Assembly (NCBI RefSeq): GCF_016025255.1
Contig: NZ_CP065592.1
Location: 353,122-417,121 of the forward strand
DNA length: 64,000 nucleotides
Direction of reading: 5' to 3'
DNA from: Sphingosinicella flava
GTDB lineage: Bacteria > Pseudomonadota > Alphaproteobacteria > Sphingomonadales > Sphingomonadaceae
Part shown: positions 45,249 through 64,000 of the stretch, in pieces
How the letters are laid out: every line of letters begins with the position of its first letter
How positions within the stretch are numbered: position 1 is the first letter of the stretch
Position numbers and translations under genes: made by a program
The notes under the pieces: model-generated
Databases searched by the model: none
Seen by the model: only the letters and a program-made list of their open reading frames with translations
Told to the model about the DNA's origin: nothing

Positions 45249-45459
45249 TGCGTTCCTCCATATCTTGTTGACCTGTAACCTTATTATGCACCTAGATGGT
45301 TCGCATCGCCATCGGGCCTGAAAGAGCGTTCCGAAACGGGACGCGAACCATCGGCCTTTGCTTCACCGCAAAAAGAAGTGTCATGGTTTGCGAAATCGCA
45401 AGGCGCGGCCTCCTGTCATCATCGAAACTGATTTTCTATTTGAAAACAGGGAGGAAGGG

Positions 45460-46515: not shown

Positions 46516-46528
46516 TGGGAAAGAGGCG

Positions 46529-47995: not shown

Positions 47996-48009
47996 AAGGA
48001 AGAGATGCG

Positions 48010-49143: not shown

Positions 49144-49149
49144 GCGACT

Positions 49150-50274
49150 TCACGCCTGCAGGAAGGCATCCCGCAAGGCATAATACATGTCCTTGCGCTC
49201 CAGCCGCGCATCGTAGGGAAGGCCGCGATTGATCTTGTGCGCACGGTCGGGCGAGGGGAGGCCCTTCGATTGGTCTTCCAGCCAGCTGTGCCGGTCGCTG
49301 AGGCCCCAGGTGACGATGCCGGTGACGGCCGGTTCGTCCAATGCCACTTCCACGAACGACCGCGCCTCTGCGGCGACCCTTTTGTCGCGCAGGGGGAGGG
49401 GGGCGCCCTTGTCATGCTCCTTCACGTCGAGTTCGGTGATGACGATATCGACTCCGAAACCGCGCAATTCTTTCAGGAAATTCCGCACAACATGCGGCTT
49501 GAACGGCCCCTTCGACAGATCGAGATGGGCCTGCACGCCGACGCCATCCAGCGGGACGCCGTCTCTTTTCAATCGCTCCACCAGCTTCAGGAACAAAGTC
49601 CGCCGATCCTCCTCGACGGGATTGTCGTAGTCGAAGCCATATTCGTTGATGAACAGCTTGGATTTCCGGTCCCAGCGTCGCGCCTCGCGCATCGCGCGCT
49701 CGATATAGCTTGGTCCGAACGCCTTGTAGAAAATCGTGGTGCGCAGGCCATCGATACCGCGCTCGCTGTCGATCGGCTCGTTCACCACGTCCCATTCGTG
49801 GATCTTGCCTTCATAGCGCGGCAGCACTTCCTTGAAGAACGTCTGAACAAGGCCCCAATCCTTGGTCCTGGCGAGCTGCCTCAGCGCCCATTTCGGCGTT
49901 GTCTGCTCCCATAGCAGCGAATGGCCGCGCACGTGGAGATCGTGCTTTTGCGCCAGCGCGACCAGGCTGTCGGCATGCTCGAACCACCAGCTGTCCTTGT
50001 GATAGCGGAAGCTGTTCCAGTTGAAATGAATCTCCGGCGTCAGCGACGAACATTCGTGCAGCACCGCATCGCGCAACTCGGGATCCGCGTCGAGCTGGTC
50101 CATCCGGATCGCCGCGCCGAAGAAACGGCCCTTGCGGCGCGCGGCCTGCGCCAGCGAGGGCGCCGGATCGGTCTTGAACGAAGCCGCCATGGCTTCTTGA
50201 AACGCCTGGCCGCCCGCGATGGGCGCAGCCGCCATCGCACTAAGAAAATGTCTGCGCGAAACGTGAAAAGACAC
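49150..50274 (-). CDS. Endo-1,4-beta-xylanase, glycoside hydrolase family 10
   Basis: A 374-residue GH10 enzyme with a Tat signal (SRRHFLSAMAAAPIAGGQAF). The acid/base glutamate is E166 in EWDVVNEPID and the nucleophile E281 in IVITELDVKEHD. The family substrate-binding segments HVRGHSLLWEQTTPKW, INEYGFDYDN and GIVTWGLSDRHSWLED are complete, so it should be active on xylan or a related beta-1,4 glycan. It faces the polysaccharide synthesis genes tail to tail. It could trim the product made by them, or just degrade plant xylan. Confidence 0.93.
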   Translation of the reverse strand: MSFHVSRRHFLSAMAAAPIAGGQAFQEAMAASFKTDPAPSLAQAARRKGRFFGAAIRMDQLDADPELRDAVLHECSSLTPEIHFNWNSFRYHKDSWWFEHADSLVALAQKHDLHVRGHSLLWEQTTPKWALRQLARTKDWGLVQTFFKEVLPRYEGKIHEWDVVNEPIDSERGIDGLRTTIFYKAFGPSYIERAMREARRWDRKSKLFINEYGFDYDNPVEEDRRTLFLKLVERLKRDGVPLDGVGVQAHLDLSKGPFKPHVVRNFLKELRGFGVDIVITELDVKEHDKGAPLPLRDKRVAAEARSFVEVALDEPAVTGIVTWGLSDRHSWLEDQSKGLPSPDRAHKINRGLPYDARLERKDMYYALRDAFLQA

Positions 50275-50642
50275 GTGCCACCCCGCTATTGCCCTGCGCG
50301 GTGGATGCCGGATCGAGGTTAACGAATGCTCACCCCGCAGCGCCCCACCGCGCTCCTTCTGCCCAAGGCGGTTTCTACAGAGGGAAAAGCCGACATTTCA
50401 ACATCTTGTACGGGGCGAGCCGGCAAAAGTTGGGGATAATGCCTGGTTTCTGGCTAAAATCGGCGCCCGCACTGTGCCGCATGCTATCGATCCCCACGCT
50501 TATGCCATTGGCGGAGGATGGAATGGAGGAACGTCCTACGGGTTTTTCGCCATAGTCCAGGCTGCGGTGATGGAGGATAATCAGCCCCTAAAACAACGCC
50601 TTTCAAGGGGGAGGAAAGGGCCGAACGAATAAGGGTCGAACC
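50275..50642. other. Intergenic region without recognised gene
   Basis: This 368-base divergent gap between the GH10 gene and the outer-membrane barrel gene must contain two promoters. I see no tRNA, no convincing ORF longer than about 88 codons with a coding look, and no clear riboswitch. One AT-rich stretch (around 50430-50460) and a start-proximal AACGAATAAGG at 50624 are the only notable features. Confidence 0.5.
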
Positions 50643-51440
50643 ATGCTGAACCGCATCGCGCGCAACGTCCTCCTCCTTGCTTCCGTTGCGCTTCCGTCCG
50701 GCGCTTGGGCGCAAGGTTTCGTTATGGAACGAGGTGAGGGCCGCGTGATCGTCACCGGCATCTATTCACACAGCAGCAAGCAGTTCGATGATGACGGTGA
50801 CGTCATCGACATCATGGATTACCGCCAGGCGCAAATCTACCTGAACGGCGAATATGGCCTGACCGACGATCTCACCCTGCTCCTCACCCCCAGCTTTCGC
50901 GACATCAGCATTGACGACCGGCCGGAGCGCGACGAAACCGGGTTTCAATTCGTCGACATCGGCGCCCGCTACCGCGTCGCGCATATCGGCAACACGCATT
51001 TCTCGGTGCAGGCAAAGGTCCGCATTCCCGCCGACACCTTCCGCGACGAACTGGCGCAGGTCAGCATCGAAGGCACGGCTTACGATTTCCGCGGCCAAAT
51101 CGGCCACGGATTCCAGATGGGCGGAAAAGATGCCTTCATCATCGGCGACGCCGGCTACACCGTCCGCGAAGACGATCCGCCCAACGAAATCCACGCCGAC
51201 GTCATCTTCGGCTACCGCCCCGCTCCCCGCGTTCTGCTCCTCGCCAACCTCTATAACACCTTCTCGGACGGCGAAGGGCGCAACGGCTTCCCCGATTACC
51301 GCTACCACAACCTGTTCCTGAGCGGCGTCTACGACATCAACGACACAGTGTCCCTGCATCTCGGCGGTCTGATGACCGTCGATGGCGAAAATGCCCTGCG
51401 CGAGCGAGGGTTGCTGCTAGGCGCTTGGCTGCATTTTTGA
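50643..51440 (+). CDS. Outer membrane beta-barrel protein, MetA-pathway-like/unknown
   Basis: A 265-residue protein with a signal peptide (MLNRIARNVLLLASVALPSG then AWA|QGF). The mature part alternates short hydrophobic strands with turns rich in Asp and Gly (GRVIVTGIYSHSSKQFDDDG, QIYLNGEYGLTDDLTLLLTP), and ends with the aromatic LLLGAWLHF expected of an outer membrane barrel. It could be the export pore for the neighbouring polysaccharide cluster or an unrelated porin; the family is not identified. It is on the plus strand, divergent from the xylanase gene. Confidence 0.75.
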   Translation: MLNRIARNVLLLASVALPSGAWAQGFVMERGEGRVIVTGIYSHSSKQFDDDGDVIDIMDYRQAQIYLNGEYGLTDDLTLLLTPSFRDISIDDRPERDETGFQFVDIGARYRVAHIGNTHFSVQAKVRIPADTFRDELAQVSIEGTAYDFRGQIGHGFQMGGKDAFIIGDAGYTVREDDPPNEIHADVIFGYRPAPRVLLLANLYNTFSDGEGRNGFPDYRYHNLFLSGVYDINDTVSLHLGGLMTVDGENALRERGLLLGAWLHF

Positions 51441-51487: not shown

Positions 51488-51532
51488 TGGTGGACGCACT
51501 AGGGCTCGAACATAGGACCCGCTGATTAAGAG
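51488..51532 (-). pseudogene. tRNA-Lys(CTT) 3'-half remnant (attachment site)
   Basis: Read on the minus strand this 45-base piece gives the anticodon loop CTCTTAA, the 3' anticodon stem TCAGC, a GGGTCC variable region, the T-loop GTTCGAGC and an acceptor end TGCGTCC-A-CCA. The 5' half (D-arm and 5' acceptor) is absent and the 5' anticodon stem does not pair. There is one T-stem mismatch. This is the typical footprint left by an integrase that uses a tRNA 3' end; orientation predicts the island to the right, with an intact tRNA-Lys beyond the window. Confidence 0.8.
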
Positions 51533-51606
51533 CTGGCCATAAGCTCTTGTTATTACTAGTTATTCTGCGTCATTTCGCATCTTGGGGAACGCGAAAACGT
51601 ATCTTC

Positions 51607-51620
51607 GACCCGCTGATTCC
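51607..51620 (+). repeat. Left direct repeat (putative attL core)
   Basis: GACCCGCTGATTCC, identical to 58628-58641. Its first 12 bases also occur in the tRNA-Lys remnant (51516-51527). It lies between the tRNA remnant and hipB, in a 475-base gap (51441-51915) that otherwise contains only the tRNA remnant and a small inverted repeat at 51528-51548. Confidence 0.65.
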
Positions 51621-51887
51621 GAGGCGTATTACTTCAGGCCTATTCATGCAAGTTTGGGCGCCCGGGACCCCCGTGATACCCACACGGAAGATCGTCAAAT
51701 TTCTGGGTATCAGAGCGTAGAGGGTAATGGCGGTGTGATCTGTCTACCGGCCGAGCCACAGCTTCATATCGATCGCAATTGCGTGCGTCAGGAAAATTCC
51801 TGATCGGTAACATCTTTGGTTTAGCATCACCTGATTGAATGAAATTTACCGATCGGGAATATTGGCCTTGCATCGGCATGAAAATGT

Positions 51888-51916
51888 TGATAATGTCCCG
51901 TTCGGGAAAATTATCA
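51888..51916 (+). promoter_or_regulatory. Palindromic HipB operator
   Basis: TGATAAT-GT-CCCG-TT-CGGG-AAA-ATTATCA: the 7-base outer arms and 4-base inner arms are perfect. It overlaps the hipB start codon. A partial half-site CGATCGGGAAT precedes it at about 51850. A repressor dimer here, HipB itself, would shut off the operon. Confidence 0.75.
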
Positions 51917-52122
51917 TGCTTGATACGACTACCGTAGGGAAAATCGTCCGCGAGGAACGTAAGGCACTGGGACTGCGTCAGGCAGAGCTTGCCGCTGCCA
52001 GCGGTGTTGGCGTGCGCTTCCTTGTGGACTTGGAACGAGGCAAGCCGACTGTCCAGCTTGGTCGTGTTCTCGCAGTGCTGGCGGCGCTGGGGTGCTCGCT
52101 CGATATTCGGCGGCCGCAATGA
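51916..52122 (+). CDS. hipB: HipB-type XRE antitoxin
   Basis: A 68-residue Cro/C1-type helix-turn-helix protein (VGKIVREERKALGLRQAELA then AASGVGVRFLVDLERGKPTV), the usual size for compact HipB/y4mF antitoxins. The ATG at 51916 sits in the palindromic operator. Its stop overlaps the hipA start as ATGA, the classic antitoxin-toxin layout. It should neutralise HipA and autoregulate the operon. Confidence 0.9.
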   Translation: MLDTTTVGKIVREERKALGLRQAELAAASGVGVRFLVDLERGKPTVQLGRVLAVLAALGCSLDIRRPQ

Positions 52123-53396
52123 GCGGGCCGATCCTCGACAATCTTGTCGTTTGGTGGGGACAGCGCATTACGGGGACGCTTTCGATCGATCGGGGCGGCG
52201 CGATGCATTTCACCTATGTTGCCGATTGGCTGGCTGATCCCGACGCGCCTTCATTGTCGCGCGCGATGCCCAAACGCGAAGCCGAATATGACGATGCGAT
52301 CTGCAAGGCGGTCTTTGGCGGTCTGCTCCCCGAAGAAGCGCAGCGCACCGCGATTGCCCGCGCGCTCGGTGTTTCGCCCGACAACCCCTTTCGCTTGCTG
52401 GCGGCGCTGGGTGGCGATGTCGCGGGTGCGCTCGCGTTTCTTCCCACAGGTGAGATTCCACCAGAGGCGACGACTGGCGACCCGGAACCCTTGGACGATG
52501 CAGCGCTTGCCGGTTTGATCGCCCGGTTGCCGCGCGTGCCGATGCTTGCCGGGGAAGGGGGTGCACGTCTCAGCCTCGCCGGAGCGCAATCCAAGCTCCC
52601 GGTTGTGCTTGTCGGCGGCAAGATCGCCGTTCCCTTACCCGGTCAGCCTTCAACCCATCTGATCAAGCCTGAGCCTGACCGGTTTTCCGGTCTTGCCGCG
52701 AATGAGGCTCTCTGCCTCGCCCTTGCGCGCGCCGTCGGCCTTGATGCCGTTGATGCCGAATGGAGGCAGGTCAACGGGCGGCCCTATCTGCTTGTGACCC
52801 GCTACGATCGTGTGGCAGCGGATGGCGAAGTCCGGCGGTTGCATCAAGAGGATTTTGCGCAGGCGCTTGGTGTTCCATCGAACCGCAAATATGCGGCTGA
52901 AGGCGGGCCGGTGTTTCGCGACTGCTTCGCCCTGCTGCGTGAGGCGGCGGCACGTCCGGCGCTTGAGGTGCTGAAGCTGGTCGATGCCGCCATCTTCAAT
53001 GTTATCATCGGCAATGCCGACGCCCATGCGAAGAACTTCAGCCTGCTGCGGCAGGAGGACCGGGGCGGTCCTATTGTCCTCGCTCCGCTCTATGACTTGG
53101 TCGGCACGGTGATCTGGCCCGAGCTGTCTTCACGCTTCGCGATGACGTTCGGCGGAGCCGCGACGTTGGAGCAGTTGGAGGCCAAGCATTTCGATCGGTT
53201 CGCAGCCGATGCGGGCGTCGCAGCGCCCTTCGTGCGGCGTCGGGCATCGCAACTGGCGGAAGCCGTGGCCGATACAATCGGGCGTGACTTGAACGTTCCG
53301 GGGCTTGATGATCCCGAACTCATAGCGGCACAGGCGAACGTTATTCAGGATCGTGCTCAGCGTTTCACGCTCAAGGCAAGTGTGCGCGATCGATAG
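52119..53396 (+). CDS. hipA: HipA-type serine/threonine kinase toxin
   Basis: A 425-residue HipA kinase. The autophosphorylation loop is LSLAGAQSKL (residues 151-160, serine 152 as the regulatory site), the ATP lysine is in THLIKP (183), the catalytic loop NADAHAKNFSLL carries D301, and LAPLYDLV carries the metal aspartate D326. HipA phosphorylates glutamyl-tRNA synthetase and related tRNA synthetases in known cases, stopping translation and producing persistence. The toxin looks intact. Confidence 0.93.
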   Translation: MSGPILDNLVVWWGQRITGTLSIDRGGAMHFTYVADWLADPDAPSLSRAMPKREAEYDDAICKAVFGGLLPEEAQRTAIARALGVSPDNPFRLLAALGGDVAGALAFLPTGEIPPEATTGDPEPLDDAALAGLIARLPRVPMLAGEGGARLSLAGAQSKLPVVLVGGKIAVPLPGQPSTHLIKPEPDRFSGLAANEALCLALARAVGLDAVDAEWRQVNGRPYLLVTRYDRVAADGEVRRLHQEDFAQALGVPSNRKYAAEGGPVFRDCFALLREAAARPALEVLKLVDAAIFNVIIGNADAHAKNFSLLRQEDRGGPIVLAPLYDLVGTVIWPELSSRFAMTFGGAATLEQLEAKHFDRFAADAGVAAPFVRRRASQLAEAVADTIGRDLNVPGLDDPELIAAQANVIQDRAQRFTLKASVRDR

Positions 53397-53598
53397 ACGA
53401 CGCGCAATCGCGTGAGACTGAAAAACCCAGAATCAGTGTCGCGCCGTCTGGTCCGCGTATCGACGTAGAGCCTCGATCTAAAGCACCCCCCGGGTTGCGG
53501 GTGGCATAGTCAAATCGCATCGTGCTGAACTTTCCCGATGCAGGCCCTTCGGACACTGGGAATTTCTTTGAGATTGGCCGATTTCCGTGATTATTGAA

Positions 53599-53619
53599 GT
53601 GTCATCGAAAGGATGACAC
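53599..53619 (+). promoter_or_regulatory. Hairpin at the integrase ribosome-binding site
   Basis: GTGTCATC-gaaag-GATGACAC is a perfect 8-bp stem with a 5-base loop, ending directly before the ATG at 53620. The Shine-Dalgarno AAAGGA is partly in the loop and partly in the stem, so folding should restrict integrase translation; it could also be a protein operator. Confidence 0.6.
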
Positions 53620-54777
53620 ATGCCGGTAAAGGCCCTGACCAACAAGACGCTCGAAGCTCTGAAACCGAATGCGAAGCGCTATGAGGTCCATGACCTCTTG
53701 TGCCCCGGCATGAGCGTCCGAGTTTCAGCGCAGGGGCAAAAGGTCTTCTCGGTCAAGTTTCGATATGGCCTCAATCAGAAGCGCATGAAGCTCGGCGTCT
53801 ATCCCCGCATTACATTGGCCACGGCCCGTGAGAAAGCGATGGATATCTTGCGGCAGGTTGATGAAGGCATCGATCCGACCAAGCGTCGCCGCACGCCTAA
53901 TATGAAGGTCGAAGCCGTTTGCGGGGAATTCATCCGTCTTCACGCGCAGGCCCGCAACAAAAGCTGGCGCGAGGCCGAGCGCATCTTGGTACGGGAATTC
54001 GTCGGCACCTTCGGGCAGCGTGATATCCGCGAGATCAAGCGGTTCGACGTTTTGGAAATCATGGATGCCGCCGTCGCGCGCGGATCGACCTATCAGGCTA
54101 ACCGCATCCTCTCGAACATCCGCAAACTCTTCAATTGGTGTGTTGAACGCGGCATCGTCGAGATCAGCCCCATCAACGGCCTCAAAGCCCCGACCAAGGA
54201 GGAGTCGCGTGATAGGGTGTTGGAAGATGACGAAATCGTACGCCTGCTGCGCGCGTGCCGCAATGACGTCTACCCCTTCCGCCAGTTCGTACCGATCCTG
54301 CTGGCGACCGCGCAACGCCGGGGAGAGTTGGCTGAAATGCGCTGGAGCGAGGTTGATCTTACCGCCAAGCAGTGGGTCATTCCGGCCGATCGATCCAAGA
54401 ACGGCAAGCCGCATGTCGTGCCGCTCAGTCCCTATGCACTCGACGTCTTGAACGAGGTGCCGCGCTTTCTCGACTGCGATTATGTGTTCACCACGACCCG
54501 GAATTCGCCGGTCAGCGGCTTTTCGAAGATGCTACGCCGCCTGTCCGAAGGTTCGCAGACATCAGACTGGCGATTGCACGATTTGAGGCGGACCGCCGCA
54601 TCAGGCATGGCGAGGGCGGGCGTTGCCCCGCATGTCGTCGAAAAGGTGCTGAACCACATCAGCGGCACAATTTCCGGTGTGGCCGCCGTCTACAATCGCT
54701 ATGCCTATGATGCCGAGAAGCGGGAGGCATTGGACGATTGGGGGCGGGTTCTTGAGCAACTCGGAAAGCATGAATGA
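53620..54777 (+). CDS. int: Tyrosine-type site-specific integrase (P4 family, DUF4102 N-terminus)
   Basis: A 385-residue integrase. The N-terminal arm-binding domain (ALTNKTLEALKPNAKRYEVH, LGVYPRITLATAREKA) is DUF4102. A SAM-like core-binding domain follows, then the catalytic domain with R233 (LLATAQRRGELAEMRW), H320 and R323 (LHDLRRTAASG), H346 (VLNHISG) and Y358 (AAVYNRYAYDAEKR). P4-type integrases usually insert into tRNA genes, agreeing with the tRNA-Lys remnant 2.1 kb to the left. The gene overlaps the next by 8 bases. Confidence 0.95.
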   Translation: MPVKALTNKTLEALKPNAKRYEVHDLLCPGMSVRVSAQGQKVFSVKFRYGLNQKRMKLGVYPRITLATAREKAMDILRQVDEGIDPTKRRRTPNMKVEAVCGEFIRLHAQARNKSWREAERILVREFVGTFGQRDIREIKRFDVLEIMDAAVARGSTYQANRILSNIRKLFNWCVERGIVEISPINGLKAPTKEESRDRVLEDDEIVRLLRACRNDVYPFRQFVPILLATAQRRGELAEMRWSEVDLTAKQWVIPADRSKNGKPHVVPLSPYALDVLNEVPRFLDCDYVFTTTRNSPVSGFSKMLRRLSEGSQTSDWRLHDLRRTAASGMARAGVAPHVVEKVLNHISGTISGVAAVYNRYAYDAEKREALDDWGRVLEQLGKHE

Positions 54778-55399
54778 ATTTGACGACGCCTTCATGGCGA
54801 AATTACGCGGGACGTTGCGAATTGCGGGCCGCGCACATGACGAACGAATAAAGCGGCTCCAAACGCGATTGCAGGAGGTCGGCCGTCATTATCGGCACGT
54901 CATAGCAACCACACCGTCCGATCTTCCAAATGCGCCGATGAACAAGAGCCTGACGCAACGGGCCAGCTGGCTTGAAACGCAGGTCATCAATCCCTTGAAA
55001 CGCCTTGCCGAAGCGCTCGAACCAGCACAGCGGTCAATGTTCTCGACATGGCCGGAGGATTCGAAGCCGCCGCTCATCCCTGACTTCGACACGCTACATG
55101 CCCAACTGGAAGAGTTGGCCGTTTTTGCTGATTATCTACATGGTTGCCTTCGCTATCAGCAGTCAGAGGATGCAGGGCACAGTCAGGAAATCCGGGCGAT
55201 GCTGGTCTATGATATCGTCCGCGCTCTGGTAGAGTTTGTACCTGAAGTGCCGCCAAGTCGGGGCACATACGATGCCGTGGACAAACGCTATATCGGCAGT
55301 TTCCCCGAAGCCGTGATCGCCATCTATCACGAAATCACCGACGCCTATGACGAGCGTCTCGACCGGCTCTTAGCCCAATTTTCCTCAGGCCCAATCTAG
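54770..55399 (+). CDS. Hypothetical protein coupled to the integrase
   Basis: A 209-residue helical protein (QTRLQEVGRHYRHVIATTPS, HAQLEELAVFADYLHGCLRY). No known domain is seen. The ATG overlaps the integrase stop, so the two are made together; a recombination directionality or element-specific role is possible but not shown. It has many charged residues, no signal peptide and no membrane segment. Confidence 0.7.
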   Translation: MNEFDDAFMAKLRGTLRIAGRAHDERIKRLQTRLQEVGRHYRHVIATTPSDLPNAPMNKSLTQRASWLETQVINPLKRLAEALEPAQRSMFSTWPEDSKPPLIPDFDTLHAQLEELAVFADYLHGCLRYQQSEDAGHSQEIRAMLVYDIVRALVEFVPEVPPSRGTYDAVDKRYIGSFPEAVIAIYHEITDAYDERLDRLLAQFSSGPI

Positions 55400-55474
55400 C
55401 CGCTGCACATTGCAGCAGAAATCCGCGCGCAGCGCACATCGAGCCCTGTAGTATCTCTTCGCCGTCTGGGAATA

Positions 55475-55503
55475 TTTCGTTGCCGTCAATCACGACAACG
55501 AAA
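55475..55503 (+). promoter_or_regulatory. Inverted repeat upstream of the AlpA-like gene
   Basis: TTTCGTTG and CAACGAAA (8-base perfect arms, 13-base spacer) lie 11 bases before the start codon. The spacing and position fit an operator for the AlpA-like regulator or a phage-type repressor. Confidence 0.5.
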
Positions 55504-55513
55504 GGAAATTCAC

Positions 55514-55723
55514 ATGACGGCACCACCATCAAACAAGATATTGTTAACGCGGAGCGACCTGCCGCGTCTCGGACTCAACCTCTCGCCATCGACTTTGCTG
55601 CGGCTCGAAGCCGCCGGACAGTTCCCCAAGCGGGTTCGCATCGGCGCACACTCGGTCGCGTGGCTGGCGTCGGAAATTCATGCGCACATAGAAGCGCTCG
55701 CCGCCGATCGGGAGGCAGGGTGA
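55514..55723 (+). CDS. AlpA-like helix-turn-helix regulator/excisionase
   Basis: A 69-residue protein of the AlpA/MerR-like small HTH group: LTRSDLPRLGLNLSPSTLLR then LEAAGQFPKRVRIGAHSVAW. In P4-like satellites AlpA-type proteins switch on integrase/excision. The start has AAAGGAAATTC. The stop overlaps the next ATG (TGATG), making a three-gene coupled set with the small protein and the PrimPol gene. Confidence 0.88.
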   Translation: MTAPPSNKILLTRSDLPRLGLNLSPSTLLRLEAAGQFPKRVRIGAHSVAWLASEIHAHIEALAADREAG

Positions 55724-55989
55724 TGGGCAAGCGAAGCAAGAAGCGCGAAGCGGTGCAAGCTCCTCAGGCAACCGAGCTCGATATTGAATTCAAGGTCACG
55801 ATACAGGAGGTCCATTGCCGAACCGGCACCTTGTGCGACAAGCGCTCGCAAACCTTTTCATTTTCGCTGGACCATGACTTCGAGAAGGCGGCCGACTGGT
55901 TGAAATCCGAGGCCGCTTACACCGTGTTCGACGACCTGAGCGGTGAAATCGCAGCATTCCTCGACGCGGCATTGGAGGATACGCAATGA
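55723..55989 (+). CDS. Small hypothetical protein of the element
   Basis: An 88-residue protein starting MGKRSKKREAVQAPQATELD with basic first residues, then an acidic, mixed domain (FSFSLDHDFEKAADWLKSEA). No known family. It overlaps the AlpA stop by one base and the primase start by 4, so it is embedded in the replication operon. Confidence 0.72.
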   Translation: MGKRSKKREAVQAPQATELDIEFKVTIQEVHCRTGTLCDKRSQTFSFSLDHDFEKAADWLKSEAAYTVFDDLSGEIAAFLDAALEDTQ

Positions 55990-57776
55990 GCGCGTTCTCG
56001 GCGAATGCCAGTGAAAAGGCGATCATTCGATGTCGATTTGATCGCCGCGCCAGCTTTCGGGGGCTGATGAAATGGTTCGCCGGGCAGGGCATACCTGTCC
56101 TGCCGATCCACGGCGTCATCGATGGTCGCTGCACCTGTGGCGACAATCAATGTTCAAGCCCCGGTAAGCATCCGATCAGTTCTCTGGTGCCGCACGGTGT
56201 AAAGGACGCAACGACCGATCAGAAAACGATCCGGCGCTGGCATCGCAAGCACCCGGACATGAACTATGCGGTGGCCACCGATGGGCTGACCGTGATCGAT
56301 TGCGACAGCAGGGAGGCGTGGCAAGCCTTTCGCGCTGAATGCGATCCGCCGCCAACATTGCTCGTGAAAACGGCCAGAGGGTTCCATTGCTATCTCCGGG
56401 GGGAAATGTCTCCCCGGATCGGCATTCGGACCAAACTGGACATCAAGAGCAAGGCAAACAGCTATGTCGTCGGGCCGGGTTCACGGCACCTATCCGGTGC
56501 GATCTATGCGGTGTGGGAGGATGAGCCCATCGCGGATTTGCCGGATAACATCTCCAGCATTACGGCTGAACGTTCTCAAGAGGAAACCGTCAGTGACAAC
56601 GCCCTGATCCCAAAAGGTCAGCGCAACACCATACTGACAGGCTGGGCGGGATATTTGCGGCGTCTGGGCGCGCCACGAAAGGCCATATTGGCGACCTTGC
56701 GAGCGGCAAATGACGTTCTTTCCGACGACCCGTTGCCGGACAGCGAACTGCGATCCATCGCGCGCAGCATCTCCAAGAAGCCCGGCAAGGAATGGCCAAC
56801 CGTCATTCCCTTCTCGGACATACCAGAGGAGGAACTAGATTGGATATGGTATCCCTATATCTGCGCCGGGACCGTGGGGCTGCTCGACGGCGATCCGGGT
56901 GAAGGCAAGAGCCAGCTGTGCGTCTGGGTTTGTGCCCGCGTCAGTAGGGGCGATCTGCTGCCCAACGGCGATCCCATTCCGCCTGCCAACTGTTTCCTGT
57001 TCAATTTCGAAGACCTGCCCGGTGCGGTGATCCGAAAACGGCTGGAGGCAAACGGAGCGGACCTGTCGCGGGTGTTCATACAGTCGCGCCGCTTTCAGTT
57101 GACGCAGGAGATGGTCGATTGGCTGGAAGCCCAGATTGCGAAGCATCAACCTCGGCTGGTGTTCTTGGACCCGATACAGGCTTTCATGTCGGGTGTGGAC
57201 GCCAGCAACAACATTGAGGTCCGAGGCTTCATGGAAAAGCTGGTCGAGATCGCCGAACGGCAGCGGTGCGCGATCATCACCGTCCGACATTTCGGCAAAG
57301 GCCCGCAAGACAGGGCAATGAAGAAGGGTATCGGTGCGACGGACTTTGTAGGCATTGCCCGCAGTCAATGGGGCCTTGCGAGGCGCAGAGACGGCGTGCG
57401 CGGCTTTGTCGTTTTCCACTTCAAGGCAAACTCGGAGAAGGGGCAGGCCATGCTCTTTACCATGGGCGATGCCGATGGACGCAAAGGCGAGCAGCCGAAA
57501 ATTGCCTTTGACCGCTTCGAGGACATCGATGCCGACACGTTCTTTTCCGAACCTACAGCAAAACGTGGGCCGGTCCAGAACGAGCAGGAAGACGCCAAGG
57601 GCTATTTGTCCGAACGCCTCGCAGACGGTCCTAAGCCGGTTAAGGCGCTCAAAACGGACGCTGAGGCACGAGGGATAGGGTCTTCGACGCTGAACCGGGC
57701 TGCCGACGCTTTGGACGTCATCAAGGCCAAGGGAGAAGATGGCCGGTGGTACTGGTCACTGCCGTCTAAGGATTGA
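55986..57776 (+). CDS. Bifunctional PrimPol - RepA-like ATPase (replication protein)
   Basis: A 596-residue protein of two halves. Residues about 25-190 are a bifunctional primase/polymerase (PrimPol): SSPGKHPISSL, the metal pair D105/D107 in VIDCDS, and H134 in TARGFHCYLRG. Residues about 285-500 are a RecA-like hexameric ATPase (AAA_25/RepA type) with Walker A GDPGEGKS (302-309) and Walker B LVFLDP (391-396), and a conserved VRHFGKG segment. A C-terminal winged helix-like tail follows. This would prime and unwind the excised element for its own replication. Confidence 0.88.
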   Translation: MSAFSANASEKAIIRCRFDRRASFRGLMKWFAGQGIPVLPIHGVIDGRCTCGDNQCSSPGKHPISSLVPHGVKDATTDQKTIRRWHRKHPDMNYAVATDGLTVIDCDSREAWQAFRAECDPPPTLLVKTARGFHCYLRGEMSPRIGIRTKLDIKSKANSYVVGPGSRHLSGAIYAVWEDEPIADLPDNISSITAERSQEETVSDNALIPKGQRNTILTGWAGYLRRLGAPRKAILATLRAANDVLSDDPLPDSELRSIARSISKKPGKEWPTVIPFSDIPEEELDWIWYPYICAGTVGLLDGDPGEGKSQLCVWVCARVSRGDLLPNGDPIPPANCFLFNFEDLPGAVIRKRLEANGADLSRVFIQSRRFQLTQEMVDWLEAQIAKHQPRLVFLDPIQAFMSGVDASNNIEVRGFMEKLVEIAERQRCAIITVRHFGKGPQDRAMKKGIGATDFVGIARSQWGLARRRDGVRGFVVFHFKANSEKGQAMLFTMGDADGRKGEQPKIAFDRFEDIDADTFFSEPTAKRGPVQNEQEDAKGYLSERLADGPKPVKALKTDAEARGIGSSTLNRAADALDVIKAKGEDGRWYWSLPSKD

Positions 57777-57907
57777 TCTACTTTCCAAGATTCCAAGTTT
57801 TCATGCCGGGGTGCGCGCAAATCGATTTCACGCGATTACGTGCGGCCCCGGCATTGTTTTTTGCGTCATTGTCGGCGGTGAAAACATGGAAACTTGGAAA
57901 GTGGGTG

Positions 57908-58201
57908 TCACACTGCGGGGGTGGATGATAGGGCCTTGCGGGCTTCCTCCAGCGCCTTCGATCCCGGCGTCCACTGCCACGGCTGCCGGGCGACGTGATC
58001 CTTGCCCAATGTCGGATAGAGCTTGGTCTGCTTCGCAGCGAGGCGCAGCAGCATCCGCGCATCTCGCGGGGACATCTTCATTTCGCGGGAAAGCTGATCG
58101 AGCGTGACCATGTTCGGATTGTCCTTGTCGCTGGTCGCCTTCTTGCTTGTATCAAGTTGCGGCTTTGCAGCCGGGGCGGGGGCGTTCGTCGTAGTGGTCA
58201 T
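57908..58201 (-). CDS. Small hypothetical protein, possible DNA-binding
   Basis: A 97-residue minus-strand gene inside the element. It has an alanine/proline-rich start (MTTTTNAPAPAAKPQLDTSK), then a domain with LDQLSREMKMSPRDARMLLR and DHVARQPWQWTPGSKALEEA, which looks like a short winged helix such as those in histone-like or transcriptional regulators. The minus orientation contrasts with the plus-strand replication operon. Function unknown. Confidence 0.65.
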   Translation of the reverse strand: MTTTTNAPAPAAKPQLDTSKKATSDKDNPNMVTLDQLSREMKMSPRDARMLLRLAAKQTKLYPTLGKDHVARQPWQWTPGSKALEEARKALSSTPAV

Positions 58202-58272
58202 TGTCGTTCACTCCTTGGTTGTTGAACGACATTTCCATTAAGATGGGTTCGGAAGGCGTGTCAGGAGAAATC

Positions 58273-58500
58273 CTAGAAATTCCAGTCGATTTCCATGAGC
58301 GGGATCGAGAACGACGCTTTCCCATCGGTGAAGAAATATTCGTCGTCATCGCTGCCGATCTCGAATGTGTATCGGTGCCCGTCCACGTCGATATGAATGA
58401 TCTCGTCGGGCGTGTGGATCACGTCGATCATCGCGCCGGGGAATAACGCCTGCGCGTGGGATAATAGATGCGACCAGTCGAGCCGCTCGTCGTTGGACAT
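58273..58500 (-). CDS. Small acidic hypothetical protein
   Basis: A 75-residue acidic protein (MIDVIHTPDEIIHIDVDGHR, EIGSDDDEYFFTDGKASFSI). It ends 71 bases before the minus-strand neighbour's start region and is the last gene before the right direct repeat. A DNA-mimic or regulatory role would fit the acidity, but that is speculation. GAGGCC precedes the ATG. Confidence 0.55.
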   Translation of the reverse strand: MSNDERLDWSHLLSHAQALFPGAMIDVIHTPDEIIHIDVDGHRYTFEIGSDDDEYFFTDGKASFSIPLMEIDWNF

Positions 58501-58573
58501 GATGGCCTCCTTTCGTTGACCATCTTCCCAATAAGATCATGGGTGCTTCGAAGTCAGGAAAAATCCCGCGCAA

Positions 58574-58641
58574 GGCCCGCTGATTTCCCCGCGACTGCCG
58601 GTGCGCAAATTCGCGCCATGCGGTCAGGACCCGCTGATTCC
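58574..58641 (+). repeat. Right direct repeats (putative attR core and variant copy)
   Basis: GGCCCGCTGATT (58574-58585) is a one-base variant and GACCCGCTGATTCC (58628-58641) an exact copy of the left repeat at 51607. Together with the tRNA-derived GACCCGCTGATT at 51516 this gives four copies at the two ends of the element, consistent with stacked insertions at the same site. Confidence 0.6.
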
Positions 58642-58693
58642 AAAACAGGCTATCGGCGTTTCGAGATGCGCAGAAATCGGAGTCTCAGGTGGG

Positions 58694-59313
58694 TTACCGG
58701 CTTTCGCCGGGCATCCACCGGAAACCAGAAGGATCAGCAAGGACGCGCAGCTGGTCGAGATATAGCGTCTTCGCCGCATATTCTGCTTCCCGCAGGCGTC
58801 TCACCGTATCGATGCGATTGCCTCCACGCGGGCGCGGATGACCACCCGACCCGCACAGGCGGCTCCGCAGCTTGGCGGCCTTGCGGCGGGCGCGGGAGAG
58901 TTCATTCATGCCCTGCACCGTATAGCTGAGGCGTTGCGCCTCTCGAGAACCGAACCGGCCTCCGGCATAGTAGATCACTTCGCAGCGTCGTGCCGTGACC
59001 GGGCAGATGAAGTAGCAACGGTGGCCCCCGAACGGTGATGCCACCATTTCGACGGCGACATGCTGATTGATGGCACCATTTGGCATATCACCGCTGATCG
59101 TCATGACGCCGCCCCGTTCGATGTCGCTCAAATCGATGCGCAGGCGCGCACTGGCAGTGCTGAGGCGCCGATTGAGCAGTGTACCGTGTCGCACATGCAT
59201 TCGCCGGGGCGAACAACGCCCAGCCGCCGCAATATGCGAATGTCGAGTGCCAGCGTTTGCTCGACGTTGCCGATATGCGTTGAACGCCGCGCGCCTGATC
59301 CGATGCCGCCCAT
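58694..59313 (-). pseudogene. 'MGGIGSG' family gene broken by a frameshift
   Basis: On the minus strand the ATG at 59313 opens MGGIGSGARRSTHIGNVEQT then LALDIRILRRLGVVRPGE, a start well known in mobile-island proteins (often annotated as hypothetical or zinc-finger-like). That frame stops near 59128, while the continuation RIDLSDIERGGVMTI, then CYFICPVTARRCEVIYYAGG, and REAQRLSYTVQGMNELSRAR, runs in another frame to 58694. So a frameshift near 59130-59170 splits the gene. The distal zinc-knuckle cysteines of intact relatives are partly lost (FGSREAQRLSY), pointing to decay. Confidence 0.72.
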
Positions 59314-59454
59314 GAAAATCTCCTGCGTCTTGGACAGCATCATACATCGAGACCAGCGCCGTCTCAGGCCCAACCTCCGGCTCTCCGGACGGCGGCTCTG
59401 TGCCTCTCAAGCTGGCTTTTCAACGAAATACTGTGGCTTGGGGTAGGTCCGGCC

Positions 59455-59658
59455 TCAGTCCAGTAGCCGCCCCGGCGTCACGCCCAAGGCAGTGGCGAGC
59501 TTGTCTACCACGGTAATCGTCGGGTTGCGCGCGCCACGCTCAAGGTCGCTGATATAGGTCCGGTGCAAGCCAGCCTCGTCCGCGAACGCTTCCTGCGACC
59601 AACCCTTTTCCTGCCGCAGCAGACGCAGATTTCTCGCAAGACGTTCCCTAATATCCAT
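59455..59658 (-). CDS. XRE family controller-type regulator
   Basis: A 67-residue Cro/C1 helix-turn-helix protein (RLARNLRLLRQEKGWSQEAF then ADEAGLHRTYISDLERGARN), the size and look of restriction-modification controller (C) proteins. The ATG at 59658 gives only the HTH domain; longer in-frame starts add unlike sequence. It lies between the island border and the type III-like restriction operon, with a palindrome just upstream, so timing control of the endonuclease is plausible. Confidence 0.85.
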   Translation of the reverse strand: MDIRERLARNLRLLRQEKGWSQEAFADEAGLHRTYISDLERGARNPTITVVDKLATALGVTPGRLLD

Positions 59659-59690
59659 CGCTGCGACATGGACCGCCATGTAGCCAATCA

Positions 59691-59700
59691 GTCTACAGAC
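59691..59700 (-). promoter_or_regulatory. Palindromic operator upstream of the XRE regulator
   Basis: GTCTACAGAC, a perfect 10-base palindrome 32 bases upstream of the start, flanked by GATT repeats (GATTGTCTGTAGACTGATTG on the minus strand). It resembles C-protein boxes built on GACT/AGTC half-sites. Confidence 0.5.
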
Positions 59701-59798
59701 AATCGGTGACAATTCACTTTGCCAGACCGCCGCCACTTTCTTATCGATGTCACTGATCGACTACATAGAGAGGTGGCTATGCATCGCCAAACAGACCA

Positions 59799-60068
59799 AT
59801 GCCGCTAGGTACGCTTCATACCGTTGAGGGTATTGTGCGCCGGGAACCGCGCCGGTTCATCCTTGCAGTTCATGGCGGCGGAGAATGGGAGCTTGAGCCG
59901 GACCGTCACGTCGTGCGCCACGTCGATTGCGCGGTCGTGATAGAAGGGGTCCGAACCGGCTTCAACCGCCTAGAGGTTGTGCGGATCAAGCGCGAGGGGG
60001 ATGAGTGGCCGCCGAGCCAGAGCTGGACGGCTTGGTTCAACCGCTGGAGAAAACGGCGGGACGGCTAG
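59799..60068 (+). CDS. DUF5818-like small protein
   Basis: An 89-residue protein: TLHTVEGIVRREPRRFILAV then HGGGEWELEPDRHVVRHVDC and VVIEGVRTGFNRLEVVRI. This is the beta-rich DUF5818 pattern common in sphingomonads, with a tail rich in tryptophan and arginine (SWTAWFNRWRKRRDG). It lies divergent from the XRE gene and convergent with the restriction gene. Function unknown. Confidence 0.75.
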   Translation: MPLGTLHTVEGIVRREPRRFILAVHGGGEWELEPDRHVVRHVDCAVVIEGVRTGFNRLEVVRIKREGDEWPPSQSWTAWFNRWRKRRDG

Positions 60069-60072
60069 CGTT

Positions 60073-63000
60073 CTAGGCGCCGTTTGCCACTAACTTGCAT
60101 AGATAGGCGTCGCGCCCGCTGTCCATGAACAGCACGTTGCGCGCCTCCAAATCGGCCTTGGTCACGCCCGATCCGAGATTCAGTAAATTCCCGAACGCGG
60201 TTTCCGACAGGATGAACGCGCTCAGCTCGAGCTGATCATCGCCGAGTTGCGCCTCGATGTCCTTAATCGTCGTATGAAGCGCAAATTTGGGATCACCGAG
60301 GTCGAGATTACGAATGCCCTTGGGATCAACGAAGCTGAGCCATTGCCGCCCGGTCGCATCATCCACCAGCCACAACAGAAAATCAGGATAGAAATTGCCT
60401 GCGAGCGCGAACCCGAGGCCTTTCGACTTCGTGTCGGCATTGCGCAGCAGATAGAGACTGCGATTACCTATTGCCTGCTTTCCCGCCGCCGATTCATAGA
60501 ACGCCTGGAGGTCCTCAACGAATTTCACCTCGCTAGGCGCGTCGAAGGCGATCGGCCTCATTTTCAGCGGCAGCTCTTTGCCATGTTCGGGCGAGAGCAG
60601 GGGATAATAGAGATGCCTGCCAAAGCTAATCGCTACCATGTTCGCAGCGTGCCATTTGCTCGCTTTGCCAATGTCGCCGGCGGCCACGATGGCCTTCAGC
60701 TCCTCCAGCCGCTTGCGATAGGCTTCGCCGTCATCGCTATCGTCAACGTCGATCTGGTAAAGCTTGAGCATCGAACCGTGATCGGCGGTAATTTCCGCCA
60801 CATCATAGAATTGCCCTTCATATCCGGCCTTCAGGCTCTGATAAAAGCGATTGGTGTAGTCCGTCAGCAATCGGATCAGGATCGACTGCTGTTTCAACAC
60901 ATCGCCAAAACCGCTGACCGCCAGCTCGGCTTTCGGGGCAAAGAGCGTATACCAATCATCCTGCCCGGTGCAGAAATCGATCAGCCGCTTCCGGTCAAGA
61001 CGCAGATTACTCCAGCTCTTGAGGAGTTTGTATTCCTGCACCGCCAGAAAGATCTGGTCCCAGTCGAATATCGCTATCGCTTGGCGGTCGAGCTTGCCGG
61101 AGTGGCGCGCCTCGCCCTTCTCGACAATCTTGCCTTTATCCTGTGAGTTAAGTGCCTCGACACGGGGATACAGATCGAGCGTGATATGCGGCGTCTTGAT
61201 CTTTCCCGCGAAGTCGGCGGGCACTTCATACAGCCAAGGATAATGGGTCCGCTTGAAACCCTTCGCCTGATTGTCCTTATAGCCGTCGCGGAGTTTGAGC
61301 GTCTTGAGGTTTTTGTCCGTGGGCAAGTTCGCCTTGGTCGGAAAGTCGATCTGGATCATTTCGTCGCTGGGCGTAATGCCTTCTTCGATCAGATAATCCT
61401 TGAAGGTCGCCATATAATCAGCGCGGACACCGAAGATGTTCAGCGTTTCCAGCTTGTCGAGATAAGCTCCCTTGGGCCATTCATGGGGCACGGAACGCTT
61501 GAGCGACATATTGCGGCCTTTGAGGCGCACCCCGCGCCCGAAGAGCTGGATGATCTGAGACCCTTCGCCTCGCCCCATGTTGAGCAAGCCCATTGTCGCA
61601 ACCCGCCAGCTTGACCAGCCTTCGGTGAATTTGCGCGAGCCGATCAGGACGGTCATCTTGCTGTCCGGCCGGTTGATCGTCTGAAACAAGCCTGCGCCGA
61701 AATCGTCGGTTTCGCTGTCAAAAGGCTCTTCGCCCTCATCAGCGGTTTTGAAGAAACCGCTATCGTCGCCGATGCTGATCAGGCCGAAGGGTTCGGACGT
61801 GCCCACCCGCAGCGCCAGCTCGCCCTTGCTGCCCTTCAGGTTGACGAGCTTCAGGCGCTGGCGAGAACCGGCGTTGAACATCCTCCGCAGTATGTCGCCG
61901 TAGACCGAATCCGCGTCCTGCCCAAGTAGCGGCGTGAACCGACCTTCGAAGATGCTCCGGCCCTTGGTGTCGAGCAGTTGGGCGTGATCGGCGATCAGTT
62001 CGGTGATCCATACTTTCATCTGCGCGTCGTCGTTCAGGAAACGGCCAAGGAATCGCAGCACCGTTAGGATGTCGCTATCCTCGCCCGCGACCGTGTTGCC
62101 AACGAACACCCACAGGGGCCTTTCGATATTGAAATCGGCGATCGCGTCGCCTTTGGTCTCCCATAGCAGGAGCTGCTGATAGAAACTCAAAAGGCAGGCC
62201 GTGAAGTAAAGCGCGCGGACTTGCTCGTCCGCATCGTCGGCAAGGTTCAGGATCAGGGATTCCTTGCCGTAACCATCAGCATAGAAGAACTTGTAGCTGT
62301 AATCGAACAGGATCGCCTTGGCGTAGGTTTCTCGGACGGCATCCAGCTTGGCCCGGCGCTGCTCGGCGGTCGTGAGTGCGATCGAATCCCGCTGGGGCTG
62401 TGTCAGCGACCTGAGGCTTGTCGTTTCAAACTTCAGCCGGGCTTTGCGCTTAAGGATATCCTCTTCGGCCTTTTCGACGGTAAAGCCCTTGGCCACGGCC
62501 TGCGAGAAGGTTGCTGAATATTCGAAGGCAAAGCCCTTGCTCACCAGCGCTTCGCGCCGCGCCATCCATGCGCCGCCCGCGCTGCCGGTGCCGCGATGCC
62601 CTTCATCGACGAGCACCAGATTGTCGCCTTCGAACGCATCGACCGCGACGGTTTTGTCCCCCATCTCGTCGCCGAGCTTGTTGATGTCGATCACTTCGAT
62701 CGTGCCAGGGAAGTCGGGTGCTCGGTTCTTGTCGAACAGGCGATGGAAGGAAAAGCCCGACAGTGACAACTCGTCGAGATGTTGGCGCGATAGCCCTTCA
62801 TTGGGGGTCAGCAGGATGATCTTGTCAGGGAAGGCCTTGCCGCCCTTGGCCCGAAAATAATACAGGTATTGCTTGATGTTGACGTGCAGGAGCAGGGTCT
62901 TGCCGCTGCCGGTCGCACTCCAAAATGCGATCTTGGAAAGGTCGGCCTCCACATAGTCACGGAAGGGTTCGGCGCCATTTTCGGCGCGATAGCGCTCCAG

Positions 63001-63396
63001 CTCGTCGTTCAGTCCGGTGAGCAGCTCGTCGCGACGGTTGAAATACCAGTCGAGATAGATTTCGCTGAAAAGCAGGCTCAAATATTGGAAATATTTCATC
63101 GTCAGCACGCTGCCCTCGACGGCATTGCGCTTGTGGGTGATAGCCTGCCAGTGGCTGACGATGTTCAGGTCATAGCGGCGTAGCTCGGCCGCATCGATCC
63201 GATCGACATCGAACAAGTTTCGAGTCAGTTCGTGGAAGAAACCCGTCTGGCCGTCATCGTCCACGCCTTCATGGCGCGGGTCAGCCAGCCGGCCCTTGAG
63301 CGCGGCAAGCCCGTCTCCCTTGAAGAAGCCAAGCATCCAGCGATTGAGCACCAGCTCCTGATGAAAGGTGCGGCGAGGACGTGGGGCGCGAGCCAT
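60073..63396 (-). CDS. res: Type III-like restriction enzyme subunit (DEAD/DEAH helicase-nuclease)
   Basis: A 1107-residue SF2 helicase-nuclease. Walker A is SATGSGKTLLL (161-167), Walker B/DEAH variant is LVDEGHRGT (264-267), and motif VI is QLFGRGVRLKG. Near the C-terminus NFYPDFLLWL (D1005) and SFVDPKG (D1024, K1026) form a PD-(D/E)xK nuclease site. It needs the methyltransferase for site recognition. The start overlaps the mod stop (TGATGG). The lack of a separate specificity gene fits type III. Confidence 0.92.
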   Translation of the reverse strand: MARAPRPRRTFHQELVLNRWMLGFFKGDGLAALKGRLADPRHEGVDDDGQTGFFHELTRNLFDVDRIDAAELRRYDLNIVSHWQAITHKRNAVEGSVLTMKYFQYLSLLFSEIYLDWYFNRRDELLTGLNDELERYRAENGAEPFRDYVEADLSKIAFWSATGSGKTLLLHVNIKQYLYYFRAKGGKAFPDKIILLTPNEGLSRQHLDELSLSGFSFHRLFDKNRAPDFPGTIEVIDINKLGDEMGDKTVAVDAFEGDNLVLVDEGHRGTGSAGGAWMARREALVSKGFAFEYSATFSQAVAKGFTVEKAEEDILKRKARLKFETTSLRSLTQPQRDSIALTTAEQRRAKLDAVRETYAKAILFDYSYKFFYADGYGKESLILNLADDADEQVRALYFTACLLSFYQQLLLWETKGDAIADFNIERPLWVFVGNTVAGEDSDILTVLRFLGRFLNDDAQMKVWITELIADHAQLLDTKGRSIFEGRFTPLLGQDADSVYGDILRRMFNAGSRQRLKLVNLKGSKGELALRVGTSEPFGLISIGDDSGFFKTADEGEEPFDSETDDFGAGLFQTINRPDSKMTVLIGSRKFTEGWSSWRVATMGLLNMGRGEGSQIIQLFGRGVRLKGRNMSLKRSVPHEWPKGAYLDKLETLNIFGVRADYMATFKDYLIEEGITPSDEMIQIDFPTKANLPTDKNLKTLKLRDGYKDNQAKGFKRTHYPWLYEVPADFAGKIKTPHITLDLYPRVEALNSQDKGKIVEKGEARHSGKLDRQAIAIFDWDQIFLAVQEYKLLKSWSNLRLDRKRLIDFCTGQDDWYTLFAPKAELAVSGFGDVLKQQSILIRLLTDYTNRFYQSLKAGYEGQFYDVAEITADHGSMLKLYQIDVDDSDDGEAYRKRLEELKAIVAAGDIGKASKWHAANMVAISFGRHLYYPLLSPEHGKELPLKMRPIAFDAPSEVKFVEDLQAFYESAAGKQAIGNRSLYLLRNADTKSKGLGFALAGNFYPDFLLWLVDDATGRQWLSFVDPKGIRNLDLGDPKFALHTTIKDIEAQLGDDQLELSAFILSETAFGNLLNLGSGVTKADLEARNVLFMDSGRDAYLCKLVANGA

Positions 63397-64000
63397 CAGG
63401 CGTCACCCGTCTCAAACATCGCTTCCAAAAATGCCGGTTCGATCTGACGGAGCTTGAGCGTCTTGGTGACCTCACCATCCTCTGCGCTGCTGGTCAGCAC
63501 GGACGGGATGTTATGATCGCCGTTGATGTAGACCACTTCATATTCGCTATCGGCGGGGTTGATCGCCAGCTTGTCGCACAGCTTGGCGAGGCCCTCATAA
63601 TCGAGCGTGTCGCAATCGCGCCAAAGAACGAGCGTGCGTTCGCCGGTCGGCAGCGTGCCCTCTACCGCGACGAAGCCCTGCTTGAGTTGGATATCGATAT
63701 GCCGGACGGTGAGGCCGATCAGATAGTTGAACGTCTCGACAAGATCGATCTTGGTCGGGGCATAGGCACCCGCGCTGTCCACAGCGATATTGAGCGTATA
63801 ATCGAATGGTTTGCGCAAATCCTCGACCGACAGGATAGAACCACGCGCCTCGACATCCAGCATATAGCGAATGAGATAGTCATCGCGGGCACCAGACGTA
63901 ACCGCGTCGAGCAATCCGGTCTGAGCGTCGTCGCGCTTCAGGTTCAGATTGTTGAGCGTGTCCTCATAGCTTTCAATCTTCAGCACCTTGAAGGCGTGGC
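63396..64000 (-). CDS. mod: Type III-like DNA methyltransferase (Mod), C-terminal part
   Basis: The frame enters from the right edge reading HAFKVLKIESYEDTLNNLNL and ends MFETGDA. The length seen is about 201 residues. This is the C-terminal, helix- and beta-rich region of the Mod subunits that pair with such helicase-nucleases; the catalytic methyltransferase motifs must lie beyond base 64000. It overlaps the res start by one base, so mod and res form one operon transcribed leftward. The call depends on the partner and on the KIESYEDTLNNL block. Confidence 0.82.
   Translation of the reverse strand, partial: HAFKVLKIESYEDTLNNLNLKRDDAQTGLLDAVTSGARDDYLIRYMLDVEARGSILSVEDLRKPFDYTLNIAVDSAGAYAPTKIDLVETFNYLIGLTVRHIDIQLKQGFVAVEGTLPTGERTLVLWRDCDTLDYEGLAKLCDKLAINPADSEYEVVYINGDHNIPSVLTSSAEDGEVTKTLKLRQIEPAFLEAMFETGDA

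Follow-up and report, generated by a model that had tools for sequence, protein, structure and literature searches.

Integration site and extent of the element

The window, as the whole 64,000-nucleotide stretch of Sphingosinicella flava DNA analysed here is called (353122-417121 of contig C1 in genome G000, a single-contig genome of 2.42 Mb), carries in its right-hand part an integrative element inserted in the tRNA-Lys(CTT) gene beside rodA. The element comprises the hipBA toxin–antitoxin genes, a tyrosine integrase gene (int), alpA, a gene for a PrimPol-type replication protein and a type III restriction–modification block, and it contains two identical 14-bp repeats, GACCCGCTGATTCC, at 51607 and 58628. 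The original prediction took these repeats for the boundaries of a compact, satellite-like element of 7 kb lying beside a 3' remnant of tRNA-Lys(CTT). Both the exact copies and the remnant to their left are indeed present, but the ends of the element lie elsewhere, at the remnant and at the intact tRNA gene, 19.4 kb apart. The attachment (att) sites and related sites found in the window are the following:

51488..51532, minus strand: left end (attL), a 45-bp stretch of displaced tRNA-Lys(CTT) 3' sequence, differing at one position from the first 45 bases of the intact gene
51607..51620, plus strand: second half-site copy (the first GACCCGCTGATTCC copy), 91 bp inside the left end, exact match
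58574..58587, plus strand: half-site 54 bp left of the internal core; the 54-bp spacing also occurs in the relatives G234, G245 and G417 (degenerate in G417)
58628..58648, plus strand: internal att-like core (the second GACCCGCTGATTCC copy), with half-site GACCCGCTGA, a 7-nt spacer TTCCAAA and a partial second arm
58710..58729, plus strand: arm-type motif belonging to the internal module, at +82; with a score of 14 of 20, it is weak in the window

The intact tRNA-Lys(CTT) gene, located by a genome-wide pattern search and with ARAGORN, lies outside the window at 424024-424099 (window-equivalent 70903-70978) and is followed by rodA. Since it stands 19.4 kb to the right of the remnant, the element, as delimited by these two sequences, is about 19.4 kb in size, not 7 kb, and crosses the right edge of the window. 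The tRNA is encoded on the minus strand, and a displaced 3' part on the left with a regenerated gene on the right is therefore the picture expected for an element lying between them. The integrase gene, the duplicated tRNA 3' part and the regenerated tRNA gene at the ends mark it as a tRNA-targeted integrative element; that it is satellite-like, as had been proposed, is supported by its int, AlpA, PrimPol and HipBA content. In complete relatives the insertion junction does not include the 14-bp repeats, a finding named in advance by the original prediction as speaking against its boundaries: G245, for example, has 46-bp duplicated tRNA halves 10.7 kb apart, with the repeat pair inside them. 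Genes located right of 58628 accompany the left-hand genes in relatives as well.

In the same-genus genome G053 the region corresponding to window positions 45388-51440 is conserved (75%), as is the tRNA-Lys/rodA side, and a different island, whose integrase is only 25% identical, lies between its own tRNA-Lys remnant and intact gene; an extra ca. 5 kb, absent from the window, separates the conserved flank from the remnant. Judging by this comparison, the tRNA-Lys gene is a hotspot for competing elements. rodA stands beside tRNA-Lys(CTT) in 17 of the 30 loci fetched around the tRNA in the genus. The unrelated island in the same tRNA-Lys gene of G053 (L127/L128) is 21 kb in size.

Repeats, half-sites and the internal module

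The length of the 14-bp repeat is no evidence by itself, because the window contains 30 different 14-mers that are repeated within 8 kb. A genome search allowing up to one mismatch returned the two exact copies of GACCCGCTGATTCC and one further place with a mismatch. The repeat and the tRNA-Lys(CTT) remnant have GACCCGCTGATT in common. Within the window, the 10-mer CCCGCTGATT stands only at 51518, inside the remnant, and at 51609, 58576 and 58630, all on one strand, and this four-fold clustering is not due to chance; the count of this 10-mer covered the window and the fetched 26 kb. The bases shared with the tRNA point to recognition by the integrase, as had been suggested; the 14-bp repeats are nevertheless not the attachment ends. 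We infer that both copies are half-sites for the integrase within the element, the first lying close to the left end and the second in an internal module. The half-site of the 51607 type is found at +91 in L020, G449, G098 and G460a, at +90 in L037 and in inverted orientation in L022, and is absent elsewhere.

The 58628 repeat sits between orf97/orf75 and a gene of the GIGSG type. The window has an internal site of the same form, and so does every relative with both flanking genes in its locus (17/17). Such a site also occurs in L020, where the contig ends before the GIGSG gene, and in G324, where the GIGSG gene was not found, which gives a total of 20 elements in 19 genomes; in other loci the internal-site region is missing or lies past the contig end. 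Most of these sites were first found by a half-site motif scan (that of G413 by reading the orf75–GIGSG stretch), so the count obtained from the motif is not independent evidence. Evidence independent of the scan is provided by the arm at +82 and by the sharp edges of the module, both described below. Exact matches to GACC[CT][AG]CTGAT, counted without G460b, G324 and G413, number 55 in 17 loci (427,442 bases), compared with 0.5 on average in shuffled sequence: 30 belong to attachment sites, 17 to internal sites and 8 to other places, namely the +91 position at the left end (four), an inverted left-end site (one) and half-sites left of the internal core (three).

The resemblance of the internal site to the tRNA is confined to a short stretch. 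Across 18 sites, counted without G460b and G324, the half-site (tRNA alignment columns 27-38) agrees with the element's own tRNA in 96% of positions, the 26 columns before it (0-25) in 25% and the seven crossover columns in 49%, column 38 being counted in both the half-site and the crossover; the value of G413 in the half-site comparison (11/12) uses the tRNA of a relative. The internal spacer equals the crossover of the target in none of the 20 elements.

A 20-base arm motif, defined from true right ends only, stands at +82 of the internal core in 18 of the 20 elements and at +81 in one further element, while in G449 it is not at that place. The internal arms score 16.2 on average, compared with 12.0 for 10,000 control windows. 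G449, G131, G098, G460b and G413 have an additional arm motif at -120 to -122, with a score of 18 or 19. The internal arms point opposite to the arms at the true ends, and the module thus resembles an inverted attP. Pairwise comparison of 19 elements (without G324; the pairs are not independent), restricted to in-register DNA matches of 45 nt or more, yielded 74 matches, 32 of them crossing the core, of which 15 begin at -4..0 and 15 end at +102..+107. As outlined by these edges, the module is about 105 bp long and stands between unrelated cargo; in G417, G234, G088 and G245, several members of the window's own subgroup, the homology continues straight through. A cargo open reading frame (ORF) ends exactly at the TGA in the internal core in G188 (site 8843), L022 (site 18410) and L024 (site 16181), so that in these three the cargo abuts the module directly. 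In a 12-mer search of distant integrase loci, L031, L032, L033 and L034 showed no internal copy besides the remnant or the tRNA, and L036 and L041 each had one place with two mismatches. No report of such an internal att-like module was found in the literature searched, whose coverage was partial, which is weak evidence of novelty.

Relatives of the element and their target tRNA genes

Relatives of the integrase were found at E <= 1e-110 in 12 of 298 genomes sampled from the family and in 18 of 396 sampled from the order, the source genome included. Two other genera were searched at E <= 1e-120, with matches in 1 of 201 and 6 of 195 genomes, most of them already known. The island family spans several families and genera of Sphingomonadales. 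Phage and plasmid origins of the integrase were considered and rejected, as the phage and plasmid records all fall below 60% identity (best listed, 32% and 42%, respectively). No relative of the integrase emerged from a pattern-based scan of viral_contigs, a method that detects only close ones.

Relatives with both ends in the fetched stretch occupy tRNA-Lys(CTT) (e.g., G245, G417, G449, G234 and G398) or tRNA-Lys(TTT) (G202, G108, G188, G088, G075c1 and G799), while tRNA-Thr(TGT) is the target of G460b (both ends) and of G898 and L030 (right end). The true right ends at all three targets have in common the arm-type motif TCTGATGCCCCANTGGKRCCCC or its close variants, as well as TAAGTCATTGAAAA-like bases beside the tRNA; at the right end of the window element the TAAGTCATTGAAAA-like bases are present and the TCTGATGCCCCANTGGKRCCCC motif is only degenerate. 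Several integrases of the family are lined up next to tRNA-Lys att copies in G075 C6 (L084/L022) and G028 (L026), an arrangement which suggests tandem accretion. int is disrupted, through a changed frame, an interruption or an in-frame stop, in G449 (L028 10001-11144), G188 (L051), G460b (L089) and G048 (L061), and many copies in relatives are therefore probably immobile.

In most cases the half-site of the internal module changes with the target. At least three changes of tRNA-Lys class fall on starred branches of the integrase tree, and in all three of the independent contrasts the internal site switches along with the class. Five of the six tRNA-Lys(TTT) elements match their own class better than tRNA-Lys(CTT) by a single base. 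The tRNA-Phe relative G324, whose integrase is 50% identical, has the internal site CACCGACACGCGGAT, similar to its own tRNA-Phe remnant (the intact tRNA-Phe gene was not found in the ca. 36 kb examined). In G413 the internal site is tRNA-Thr-like and the tRNA-Thr remnant matches in 43 of 45 positions; the tRNA-Thr target was predicted from the internal site and then found, though the test was only semi-blind, as tRNA-Thr was already known from congeneric relatives. The left half-site of G417 departs from its class.

Proposed mechanism and its alternatives

At a probability of about 0.72, we favour the reading in which the element is a non-conjugative, satellite-type element of ca. 19.4 kb residing in tRNA-Lys(CTT) beside rodA, its repeats are internal half-sites of the integrase (Int), and the internal module most likely serves as a control or architectural site. 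Int, helped by AlpA, would recombine the two 45-bp repeats in the anticodon-loop region, and as a result the whole 19.4 kb would leave as a circle. PrimPol would replicate the excised circle, HipBA would keep the element from being lost, and the type III restriction–modification/helicase block would defend the host. Int is also expected to bind the internal module, most likely without being able to recombine it with the tRNA sites, because the half-site follows the target and the 7-nt spacer does not. A control role is the safer reading of such binding since regulation by an integrase through att-type sites is known for KplE1, in which IntS acts with its excisionase partner TorI (PMC2951348); there, attL itself lies at the int promoter, whereas in the window the module is separate and located 3.9 kb downstream of the int end. 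The island is an example of a mobile element with an internal look-alike of its own insertion site, which in most cases changes along with the target, and a second DNA-bound role of the integrase beyond integration, be it regulatory, in multimer resolution or in cargo exchange, becomes testable.

Several observations weigh against this reading. Three degenerate relatives, G898, G048 and G083, have no internal site. The score of the window's internal arm, 14, is reached by 6.75% of control windows, so that the arm in the window itself is recognised through comparison with relatives, and no arm motif within two mismatches was found at either end of the window element or inside it. The GIGSG-type gene is frame-shifted about one third of the way in with respect to intact relatives; the window copy of the element may for this reason be decaying, a sequencing error being the alternative. 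As to the link between half-site and target, the sign test gives p 0.25, the lowest value reachable with three contrasts, the half-site of G413 matches its own tRNA-Thr remnant in 10 of 12 positions and is tied with tRNA-Lys(TTT), and G460b, located at tRNA-Thr, has an internal site closer to tRNA-Lys(CTT). The target predicted for G460b from this site, tRNA-Lys(CTT), proved wrong; its integrase gene is interrupted. The link, as it emerges from the sequences compared, is strong but, G460b running against the rule, not perfect.

It is very improbable that a 7-kb element has its attachment ends in the 14-bp repeats, the rest up to the tRNA being a second element. The repeat and the tRNA do have 12 bases in common, and joining of 51518 and 58630 would flank a core with half-sites in an attP-like manner; nevertheless, the spacers differ (TTAAGAG versus TTCCAAA), no tRNA half is present at 58628, relatives likewise have orf97/orf75 and the GIGSG gene to either side of the site, and complete relatives end at the tRNA. 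Also rather improbable is an origin of the internal module as a relic attachment site, a leftover of tandem accretion at one tRNA gene, as in the accretion of integrative and conjugative elements (ICEs) and cis-mobilizable elements. A relic would match the tRNA automatically, and tandem arrays of integrases or att copies do occur at the tRNA-Lys hotspot (G075c6, G028 and G460), but similarity to the tRNA beyond the half-site is kept in none of 18 sites (25% upstream), the spacer differs from the tRNA loop, the arms of the module point opposite to those at the true ends, and the geometry is constant across families.

A self-specific recombination site, at which Int pairs module copies only, for multimer resolution or cargo swap, is a less likely role of the module than the control or architectural one, and we regard it as doubtful. 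It would account for the full core-plus-arm layout with constant spacing, for a spacer that varies between elements and yet is unlike the target's crossover, and for homology ending sharply at the module edges with unrelated cargo on both sides; the element moreover encodes its own replication protein. No recombination product was seen, though, a site used for binding only would look much alike, and breakpoints occur elsewhere too, namely after the motifs upstream of orf97 and orf75 and in the gap between the GIGSG and helix-turn-helix (HTH) genes. In an equally tentative version, the module would constitute a second internal attachment system, an inverted attP-like site with the same tRNA-derived half-site and its own crossover sequence, by reason of which it would recombine only with itself, resolving multimers or swapping cargo blocks; one integrase would then have two separate recombination specificities, co-evolving with the target tRNA.

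Gene content and cargo slots

The genes of the element that lie in the window are listed below. Pfam recognises the proteins named in the original prediction, namely HipB, HipA, the tyrosine integrase, AlpA and a PrimPol that includes an ATPase domain.

51916..52122, plus strand: HipB-like HTH antitoxin in the left cargo slot (HTH_3, 1.1e-11)
52119..53396, plus strand: HipA toxin (HipA_C 2.2e-48, Couple_hipA 2.8e-22; TIGR03071 above cut-off)
53620..54777, plus strand: tyrosine integrase with arm-binding, core-binding and catalytic domains (PF13356, PF22022, PF00589)
54770..55399, plus strand: ORF overlapping int by 8 nt (ATG at 54770), sub-threshold Pfam match only, present in many, not all, relatives
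55514..55723, plus strand: AlpA-type regulator/excisionase (PF05930, 2.9e-09; PHROG 2790)
55723..55989, plus strand: 88-aa ORF, no family match, 45% match in G048
55986..57776, plus strand: PrimPol–PriCT_1–AAA_25 replication protein (PF09250, PF08708 and PF13481 only)
57908..58201, minus strand: orf97, conserved in relatives by comparison
58273..58500, minus strand: orf75, conserved in relatives by comparison
58694..59373, minus strand: GIGSG-type gene, frame-shifted in the window by comparison with relatives
59455..59736, minus strand: HTH protein, control-protein-like (PADLOC Control_protein, 1.1e-21)
59799..60068, plus strand: DUF5818 protein (4.4e-14)
60073..63396, minus strand: type III restriction enzyme, res (PADLOC REase_III, residues 9-1103, E 0)
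63396..64000, minus strand: type III methyltransferase, mod, in-window start, running on to window-equivalent 66587

Beyond mod there follow a DrmD-like SNF2 helicase gene, two ORFs without assignment and the intact tRNA-Lys gene. An HTH antitoxin directly upstream of a two-domain HipA identifies the HipBA module, and full-length res and mod, matched in PADLOC and NCBIfam and lying side by side, a type III restriction–modification system. The best match of the helicase is DrmD, with 673 bits versus a curated cut-off of 950, and no other Drm gene was named by PADLOC among the proteins scanned, so the set is not assigned to DISARM. The Pfam scan of 17 element proteins, which also took in two proteins of flanking genes, revealed no capsid, terminase, relaxase or conjugation family in the element, in agreement with the earlier statement that capsid and conjugation genes are lacking; the relaxase or conjugation genes characteristic of an ICE or an integrative and mobilizable element were thus not found among these 17 proteins.

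With the extent of the element corrected, the toxin–antitoxin pair and the restriction system appear as cargo of one tRNA island family. Homology to the window breaks off at 51800-51801 in G449 and L037 and starts again at 53398-53403; HipBA is therefore the filler of a left slot that is filled differently in other elements. Close HipBA homologues occur in G098, L018 and G075c6, and in L026 (G028) a distant HipBA (32%) lies between an att copy and int, on the opposite strand. Other breakpoints were mapped to 58278/58279 (G075c1, G460b and L029) and 58567/58568 (G098, L020, G449 and G413), in both cases directly after a copy of GTCAGGARAAATCC. The idea that all pairs exchange cargo at a single fixed position was rejected, as breakpoints are found at these two places and in the GIGSG–HTH gap as well. 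The 14-bp motif GTCAGGAAAAATCC and its near variants are present at 51787, 58260 and 58553, where the homology to relatives breaks off and thus at cargo-slot edges; the motif may be a part of the orf97 and orf75 promoters.

Comparison with known systems

The PICMI satellites of Vibrionaceae are small integrative elements in which int is followed by an ORF that overlaps it, then by alpA, a small ORF and a primase gene, with defence cargo past the primase gene and no capsid genes (PMC10803314). The window element has the same gene order with int, alpA and a primase gene co-located, no capsid family found, and likewise defence cargo past the primase gene. It differs in encoding a PrimPol (PF09250) instead of the DUF3987/DUF5906 primase and in residing in tRNA-Lys(CTT) beside rodA instead of at fis, integration at fis being mandatory in the final PICMI model and optional in the first survey (PMC10803314). 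It is also larger, no helper phage is known for it, and it has the internal att-like module, which is not mentioned for PICMI in the sections of the report consulted (PMC10803314). By analogy the element resembles a PICMI satellite in its presumed way of working; it is not classed as one because the primase type and the integration site differ.

With the PICIs of Gram-negative bacteria (HE-PICIs) the element shares an integration zone comprising the integrase and AlpA, a separate replication zone and variable zones, as well as an integrase clade with changing targets (PMC10111431). HE-PICIs, however, target prophage late genes (PMC10111431), whereas the window element has no recognised captured phage late genes. 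A HipAB pair maintains the tRNA-located composite island CGI48 of Shewanella (PMC8978831), and by analogy with this island, likewise situated at a tRNA gene, HipBA may stabilise the window element; in CGI48 HipAB lies in a nested island (PMC8978831), while HipBA of the window occupies a cargo slot near the left end.

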